From Terriglobus roseus DSM 18391 (GTDB lineage: Bacteria > Acidobacteriota > Terriglobia > Terriglobales > Acidobacteriaceae), in contig NC_018014.1 of the NCBI RefSeq assembly GCF_000265425.1, positions 4,836,001 to 4,900,000 of the forward strand: 64,000 bases of DNA, given 5' to 3'. The translations under genes and the position numbers were made by a program. The notes beneath the pieces are model-generated. The model searched no databases. It saw nothing but the letters and a program-made list of their open reading frames with translations, and was not told the origin of the DNA. Positions 21,588-23,788 of the stretch are shown here, one piece after another. The first letter of the stretch is position 1; each line of letters begins with the position of its first letter.

Positions 21588-22028
21588 CTAAGCGAGATCG
21601 CTCTCTGCCTTCGGCGCATTCAGGTTGCGTGCACGCGGCCCCTGCGCGGTCGATAGTGGACGTGCAACAGGCTGGCTGGGCATCGATGGATCGGTCCAGT
21701 TCTTCCAAGTGTCTTGCCTTTCGGCTCTGTGTCCGCCGACCGGTCGTGGCGGAAACGACATCATGGCCACGTTGAAATCTGTGTACTGGCGCTGACCGCA
21801 ACGGGTGCAGCGCACGGGGTAGCGCATCATCAGGATTTCTGCGAAGTCTGTGAAGCGCAAGCGCGACCGGCGAAAGCGCGGGTTGCCGCAGAGCGGACAG
21901 GCGACGACGCCCTCCGCCAGCTCTACGACGGGACGATCTTCGTAGGGGCGGACCAGATGACGGCGGTGGTTGGCCTCAACCGTGGTGACGCCGATGCTGC
22001 TCTCTTCCAGTTGCTTTGTGTCGGCCAT
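21588..22028 (-). CDS. small zinc-ribbon protein, unknown function
   Basis: The 146 residues hold two CxxC knuckles, CPLC (44-47) and CTRC (74-77), 26 residues apart, separated by FRRSRLRFTDFAEILMMRYPVR. This is a treble-clef or zinc-ribbon layout. The rest is low-complexity and polar. I recognise no named family; similar short proteins occur in acidobacterial genomes. It is 18 bases upstream of murJ on the same strand and may share its transcript. Confidence 0.65.
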   Translation of the reverse strand: MADTKQLEESSIGVTTVEANHRRHLVRPYEDRPVVELAEGVVACPLCGNPRFRRSRLRFTDFAEILMMRYPVRCTRCGQRQYTDFNVAMMSFPPRPVGGHRAERQDTWKNWTDPSMPSQPVARPLSTAQGPRARNLNAPKAESDLA

Positions 22029-22848: not shown

Positions 22849-22883
22849 CCGAAAAAAAGGCCCCGCAAAGGATGCGGGGCCTT
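22849..22883 (-). terminator. strong terminator of the minus-strand RNA
   Basis: A perfect 10-bp stem AAGGCCCCGC / GCGGGGCCTT (22857-22866 with 22874-22883) is followed on the minus strand by seven T residues. It lies upstream of the MerR gene, with no minus-strand protein gene ending near it, which points to a non-coding transcript. Confidence 0.9.
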
Positions 22884-23013
22884 GCTCATGGACAGGAACA
22901 GCGGGCTTGCAGCATTCCAAGGGACGTTGGGTGCCTCCCAGCGGGTCGTCTCCCTGACGAAAGACCCGAATCTACTACGCCAACGCTACGGATGGGACAC
23001 AGGTTGCCAGCCA
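22851..23013 (-). ncRNA. structured non-coding RNA, 6S-like candidate
   Basis: An intergenic transcript of about 160 nt is bracketed by a TTGACA promoter element and a strong T7 terminator, with no open frame. On the minus strand CGTTGG pairs with a distal CCAACG. Between them lies a hairpin with CGGG/CCCG and TCGTC/GACGA pairing. Outside is an open region, then GGCU pairing with AGCC. A long rod with an apical stem and central open region is the 6S RNA architecture. I cannot exclude another acidobacterial RNA family. No SRP, RNase P or tmRNA signature is present. Confidence 0.55.
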
Positions 23014-23017
23014 CCCT

Positions 23018-23048
23018 AGATATTGGGGTAGCGTACCAAGATTGTCAA
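23018..23048 (-). promoter_or_regulatory. sigma-70-type promoter of the RNA
   Basis: On the minus strand a consensus TTGACA (23048 down to 23043) is followed after 17-19 bases by an AT-rich CAATATCTA stretch that could be the -10 element. The distance to the structured region fits a start near 23010-23015. The -10 match is poor, so the exact spacing is uncertain. Confidence 0.55.
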
Positions 23049-23188
23049 GCGCAGATTTGCACAACTTCTGTTACAGAAGCAAGCGCCGTGGCTCCGCCGG
23101 GATGACCGTCTTCGAAATCAGTTCACTCAACGGAACCATCGGCCCCGTTCCGCCGTATGCTGCTTTCAGAAACGCAGAGGAGCCACCC

Positions 23189-23788
23189 ATGTACGTCCCG
23201 CTTCGCACGATCGCTGCACTCACCCTTCTGTTGCCGCTGGCCGGCTGCATGGTCGAATCCCGCAAGGGTGACAAGGGCGGCAAAGACGTCGCCATCACCA
23301 CGCCGCTGGGCGGTATGAGCGTAAAGACGGACAGTGACACGGTGAGTAAGAAGGTTGGTCTACCGCTGTATCCGGGCGCCGTTCTGGAGAAGAAAAATGG
23401 CAAAGACGACGGCGGATCTGCCGACGTCGACATGAACTTCGGCGCGTTTCATCTGCGCGTGCTGGCGCTGAGCTTCGATTCGACCGATTCGCCGGAGAAG
23501 ATCAGCGAGTTCTACAAGAAGGCACTGTCGCAGTACAGCGACGTGATCACTTGCCGGCACAAGCAGCCAGTTGGCACGCCCGTAAAGACGGGCCTGGGCC
23601 TCACCTGCAATGACGATAATCACGTCAAGACACATGGCAAGGAACACATGGACGATGACGACTCCACAGAGATGAAGTCCGGCTCGCCGTCGCGGCAGCA
23701 CATTGTTTCGTTCAAGAGCAGTGGCAGTGGAACCCATTTTGGCCTGGTCGCGCTGGAACTGCCTCGCGATGACAACAAGGGCGAGTAA
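23189..23788 (+). CDS. hypothetical lipoprotein
   Basis: The 199-residue product starts MYVPLRTIAALTLLLPLAGC, a signal peptide ending in a lipobox (LAGC, Cys20). It then has a Lys/Gly/Asp-rich linker. The body around residues 50-130 contains VGLPLYPGAVLEKKNG and FYKKALSQYSDVITC, a pattern seen in acidobacterial exported proteins of unknown role. I chose the ATG at 23189, which has GAGGAG six bases upstream; the ORF continues further upstream but without a signal peptide start. Envelope location is inferred. Confidence 0.75.
   Translation: MYVPLRTIAALTLLLPLAGCMVESRKGDKGGKDVAITTPLGGMSVKTDSDTVSKKVGLPLYPGAVLEKKNGKDDGGSADVDMNFGAFHLRVLALSFDSTDSPEKISEFYKKALSQYSDVITCRHKQPVGTPVKTGLGLTCNDDNHVKTHGKEHMDDDDSTEMKSGSPSRQHIVSFKSSGSGTHFGLVALELPRDDNKGE

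Follow-up and report, generated by a model that had tools for sequence, protein, structure and literature searches.

A free-standing structured small RNA gene in Terriglobus roseus with homologues across ten genera of Acidobacteriaceae

Does the space between a MerR gene and a divergent lipoprotein gene in Terriglobus roseus DSM 18391 hold an RNA gene of its own, and is its product a 6S RNA? The genome of this strain is a single contig of 5,227,858 bp, of which a stretch of 64,000 nucleotides (hereafter the window) was analysed. Working from the letters of this stretch, the original prediction had placed a structured RNA gene on the minus strand between the two genes, with its own promoter and terminator and the overall architecture of 6S RNA.

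The TTGACA hexamer on which the promoter claim was based had been positioned correctly, and only the accompanying −10 hexamer, CAATAT, had been overlooked (Table 1). Judged by its hexamers, this is a sigma-70 promoter, and the transcript would start about 7 nt past the −10 element. Homologues carry CAATAT, CAAGAT, CTATAT or CAACAT at identical spacing, and hexamers and spacing are retained in nearly all of the ~43 homologues. The terminator was also found where it had been claimed. It consists of an 11-pair GC-rich stem (22883–22857) and a T tract reaching 22852/22851, is graded strong from its sequence and is conserved alongside the promoter in nearly all homologues. Just upstream of the promoter, at window positions 23066–23078, lies a perfect palindrome, TTCTGTAACAGAA, which is largely present in the homologue L002 too; in many homologues, a TGTGCA-plus-T-tract box abuts the −35 hexamer. 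The palindrome or box may serve as an operator or UP element, or belong to the promoter of the divergent lipoprotein gene.

Table 1. Features of the RNA gene, in window coordinates.
Feature	Position	Strand	Remarks
−35 hexamer TTGACA	23043..23048	−	direct reading; TTGAC kept in nearly all homologues
−10 hexamer CAATAT	23020..23025	−	17-nt spacer from −35
Predicted transcript, ~160 nt	22852..23013	−	covariance models R1–R3 match 22852–23025 with 146–174 bits
Closing stem, 5′ strand GGCTGGC	23006..23012	−	pairs with 22900–22906; 5/6 pairs changed on both sides
P1, 5′ strand, includes CGTTGG (22985–22980)	22980..22989	−	10/10 helix pairs with double changes in homologues
Apical hairpin P2, displays CAGGGAGA (22956–22949)	22942..22967	−	helices 5–6 covary; GGGAG in nearly all homologues
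GGAGGC (general consensus CGGAGGCAA), 3′ flank of P2	22933..22938	−	95% of 44 aligned rows
P1, 3′ strand, includes CCAACG (22930–22925)	22921..22930	−	helix 3
Closing stem, 3′ strand GCCCGCT	22900..22906	−	helix 1 of covariation analysis
CTGTTCCTGTCCATGAGC linker	22884..22901	−	conserved in core Terriglobus clade only (alignment A3); replaced in other genera
Intrinsic terminator	22852..22883	−	GC stem-loop and seven T; kept in homologues, stem covaries (helix 7)

BLASTN identified 11 true homologues among 18 congeners, a count that leaves out a terminator-only match (L012). The set was widened by three rounds of covariance models (R1–R3), which gave matches in 44 of the 398 genomes of the host family, Acidobacteriaceae. 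One match (L129) was dropped because it lacks promoter and core, leaving 43 homologues counted as real. They span ten genera, with 18 of the 19 genomes of the window's genus represented and nine further genera. Three loci (L037, L078 and L079) were discarded for the same reason as L012, the terminator being the sole shared part. Class-wide and phylum-wide scans yielded no true homologue outside the host family, an absence that is provisional because the scan filters lose weak matches. The exact pattern CTGTCCAT(N)GAGCRAGGCCC, searched in genome_contigs, occurred in five Terriglobus MAGs and one Acidobacteria bacterium, and otherwise as chance matches in unrelated phyla. As far as detectable, the RNA family appears, provisionally, to be confined to one family of the Acidobacteria.

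The region had been described as having no open frame. Taken literally this is wrong, as there are two small ORFs: a 42-codon GTG ORF, which runs from 23014 to 22886 on the minus strand, and a longer MerR frame that begins with TTG at 22920. Neither is conserved across homologues, because the indels between these do not come in multiples of three.

The genes around the RNA change between homologues. The divergent lipoprotein gene adjoins it in 31 of 43, and MerR lies immediately downstream in 14 (the window and 13 others). Throughout the loci L119–L121, L123–L127 and L131, which belong to one genus, the RNA is apart from the lipoprotein gene. At the inspected loci of that genus, L120 and L125, it has a membrane (glycosyltransferase-like) gene on one side and, directly downstream, an old-yellow-enzyme-type oxidoreductase gene, with MerR further on. 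At L117 a hydrolase gene stands on one side of the RNA and a Jag-like gene on the other, and in the genome G001 the RNA is far from the lipoprotein gene. Neighbour names given without a family search were read from translations. The lipoprotein of the window had no Pfam or NCBIfam match; its family is widespread in the host family, often without an adjoining RNA, and the G001 copy distant from the RNA (C1:3981414–3981986) contains one in-frame TAG. Between MerR and murJ, the window also encodes a small protein (21588–22028) that carries a CxxC motif resembling a zinc ribbon; its position is kept in several relatives, and it matched no family above cut-off.

Because the neighbours change, we regard the RNA as a free-standing gene and not as the leader of MerR or of any other gene. 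An attenuated, riboswitch-like leader of MerR was suggested by the position of that gene, directly 3′ on the same strand in the window and the 13 other homologues. It is very improbable, since unrelated genes stand downstream elsewhere (the oxidoreductase gene in L125, the Jag-like gene in L117) and no antiterminator that might form as an alternative to the strong terminator was apparent; the changing neighbours led us to rule this candidate out. The same comparison bears on whether the RNA regulates the divergent lipoprotein gene (23189–23788), through antisense pairing or promoter competition. That gene is the divergent neighbour in several genera, but 12 of the 43 homologues, G001 included, do not adjoin it, and the lipoprotein occurs in many genera that have no copy of the RNA. 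Moreover, the lipoprotein mRNA, the sole mRNA examined, gave no energy signal of conserved pairing: across 27 loci, the best duplex energies with its start region were no better than those of shuffles (mean z +0.14). Antisense action on this mRNA, for which these energies gave no support, was set aside, and regulation of the gene by either route seems improbable to us.

Folded copies have a rod shape, in which the 5′ and 3′ ends pair and are followed by P1, an asymmetric internal loop and the apical hairpin P2. The folding energy of the window copy is unremarkable (z −1.7 when the terminator is included, +1.3 when it is not), and over 41 homologues, terminator included, the mean z is −2.8. As the single-sequence fold of the window copy is not significant, the case for the structure rests on the comparison of homologues. 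In a structure-guided alignment of 30 sequences, 89% of cells pair and double changes occur in 29 of 36 pairs; 169 cells are changed on both sides, against 52 in shuffles and a maximum of 53 when slid. This alignment had been fitted to the model, and for that reason 20 sequences were aligned with plain MAFFT and counted again. Here, 55 double-changed cells compared with 24 in shuffles and a maximum of 31 when slid, and no shuffle reached the covariation score. The helices thus covary in related genomes above all shuffles.

Not every helix proposed from the window copy extends equally far. The CGTTGG/CCAACG pairing is real and covaries in relatives; in L013, for instance, G-U-U-G-G/C-C-A-A-C of P1 is replaced by A-C-U-G-A/U-C-A-G-U. 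CGGG/CCCG and TCGTC/GACGA do both lie in the apical hairpin, but the inner TCGTC/GACGA pairing is limited to close relatives, and a different continuous stem takes its place in other homologues. The closing stem is kept with altered sequence in distant copies, such as CGUCAUUUG/CAAAUGACG in L032, and reads GGCUGC-GAUUUG/CAAAUC-GCAGCC in L039. A loop–tail pseudoknot between CAGGGA (22956–22951) and UUCCUG (22898–22893), possible in the core clade, is broken in L009, L010 and L029 and so finds no support.

The conserved promoter and terminator, the covarying helices, the lack of a conserved ORF and the changing neighbours bear out the central claim of the original prediction, that of a free-standing structured RNA gene. 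Comparison of the homologues shows a structured and conserved unit that is, by its sequence signals, transcribed independently, and we consider it almost certain that the RNA gene exists.

The proposed 6S architecture held for the general rod shape only. The rod was seen to have a closing stem and internal loops, with no large symmetric bubble defined among them. With the Rfam 6S model (RF00013), the region gave no match even at E ≤ 10. The true 6S of the genome was located elsewhere (G000:C1:742403–742590, corresponding to L059:1501–1688 on the minus strand), with 52.8 bits against the Rfam gathering score of 46.4 and 93% identity to the 6S of a relative. Genome-level RF00013 searches missed this gene, which was found only with the relative's 6S as a DNA query, so that their negative result, taken alone, would mislead. 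In the reverse direction, the family model R3 matched no 6S locus. On these grounds, identity with 6S was rejected. Could the gene instead encode a second, 6S-like RNA that binds RNA polymerase? Bacillus subtilis has two 6S RNAs, and this precedent, together with the terminal closing stem and interrupted middle of the rod, speaks for such a reading. The missing Rfam match, the canonical 6S at another locus and the failure of the family models to match 6S speak against it, as does the conserved core, which is GGGAGA/GGAGGCAA and not a promoter-like bubble; we therefore give it little credence. No Rfam family reached gathering for the RNA in the window, and the sub-gathering matches (suhB, GcvB, ClpQY promoter, isrJ and others; E ≤ 10), which rest largely on the terminator stem, were set aside.

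What, then, might the RNA do? Only two stretches of the transcribed body are near-invariant. The loop of P2 holds one, GGGAGA, and the other, GGAGGCA(A), follows 12–18 nt away on the immediate 3′ side of the hairpin. In single-sequence folds, the mean unpaired value is 0.54 for GGGAGA and 0.41 for GGAGGC, against a background of 0.38 for the pre-terminator RNA. Elsewhere in the body, CTGTTCCTGTCCAT(T)GAGC ahead of the terminator is almost letter-for-letter identical across the core Terriglobus clade, and the 5′ half of the RNA is very different in the second genus (L119–L121, L123–L127 and L131), where it reads GATGGCTTAACGGCTATCGGCCAGGATG....

We infer that the RNA acts in trans. Our tentative preference, held with rather less than even confidence, is for an Hfq-assisted regulatory small RNA whose purine-rich core pairs with target mRNAs. 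This is the first guess because Hfq is encoded in every genome checked (21 of 21) and the U tract of a terminator is the usual Hfq contact. The putatively exposed GGGAGA/GGAGGC would be the business end, pairing with pyrimidine-rich sites of target mRNAs; Hfq would assist this regulatory pairing, and the rod and terminator would lend stability.

The invariance of the purine elements is just as compatible with a structural motif or a site for a protein, and the strongest competitor of Hfq-assisted pairing is a dedicated protein site. Here, the GGGAGA loop and the GGAGGCAA internal loop would form a fixed putative protein site, and the RNA would titrate or scaffold its partner in a CsrB-like manner with another protein. 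Two near-invariant purine elements, one hairpin strand apart amid freely changing helices, argue for such a site. However, there are only two sites per RNA and there is no candidate partner. The obvious protein is CsrA, to which the CARGGA-like loop points, but none of the 19 genomes tested in the window's genus encodes CsrA/RsmA, which excludes a CsrA sponge. Overall, we judge a protein-binding RNA to be somewhat unlikely. It is doubtful, too, that the GGGAGA/CGGAGGCAA core is a dedicated putative site for a partner, be it a protein, the ribosome or RNA polymerase, and the RNA a new class of structured non-coding RNA that serves as a lineage-specific global regulator and differs in mechanism from 6S, CsrB and ordinary seed-pairing small RNAs.

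Whichever of these readings applies, the RNA is a new family among free-standing bacterial small RNAs. It is absent from Rfam 15, and no description of it was found in open-licence papers. Very few small RNAs have been annotated in Acidobacteria, with one review listing four distinct ones (PMC9029176). The ~43 members of the new family covary strongly and share a near-invariant core as well as a conserved promoter, and the family offers a concrete, testable way into the RNA regulation of a phylum abundant in soil. Its covariance model can be deposited as is.

Among known systems, Acido-1 (RF01686) and Acido-Lenti-1 (RF01687) are Acidobacteria non-coding RNA motifs that were judged not to be cis-regulatory (Weinberg et al. 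2010, PMC2864571). The new RNA is likewise structured, non-coding and found in Acidobacteria, but neither model matches the window or the homologues. With 6S/SsrS (RF00013) it shares a free-standing gene, a length of ~160–190 nt and a rod whose ends pair and whose middle is interrupted; unlike 6S, with which it has no sequence or covariance-model similarity, it ends in a strong intrinsic terminator and has a different conserved core. CsrB/RsmZ resemble it in that a hairpin loop presents GGA (CAGGGA of the new RNA agrees with CARGGA) and another GGA lies 12–18 nt away, whereas the new RNA has two sites only, in a genus from which csrA is missing. Hfq-associated trans-acting small RNAs have in common with it their own sigma-70 promoter, an intrinsic terminator with a U tract, a structured body and an encoded Hfq. 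They differ in the pairing element, as their usual seed is a C/U-rich anti-Shine–Dalgarno sequence and the conserved element of the new RNA is purine-rich.
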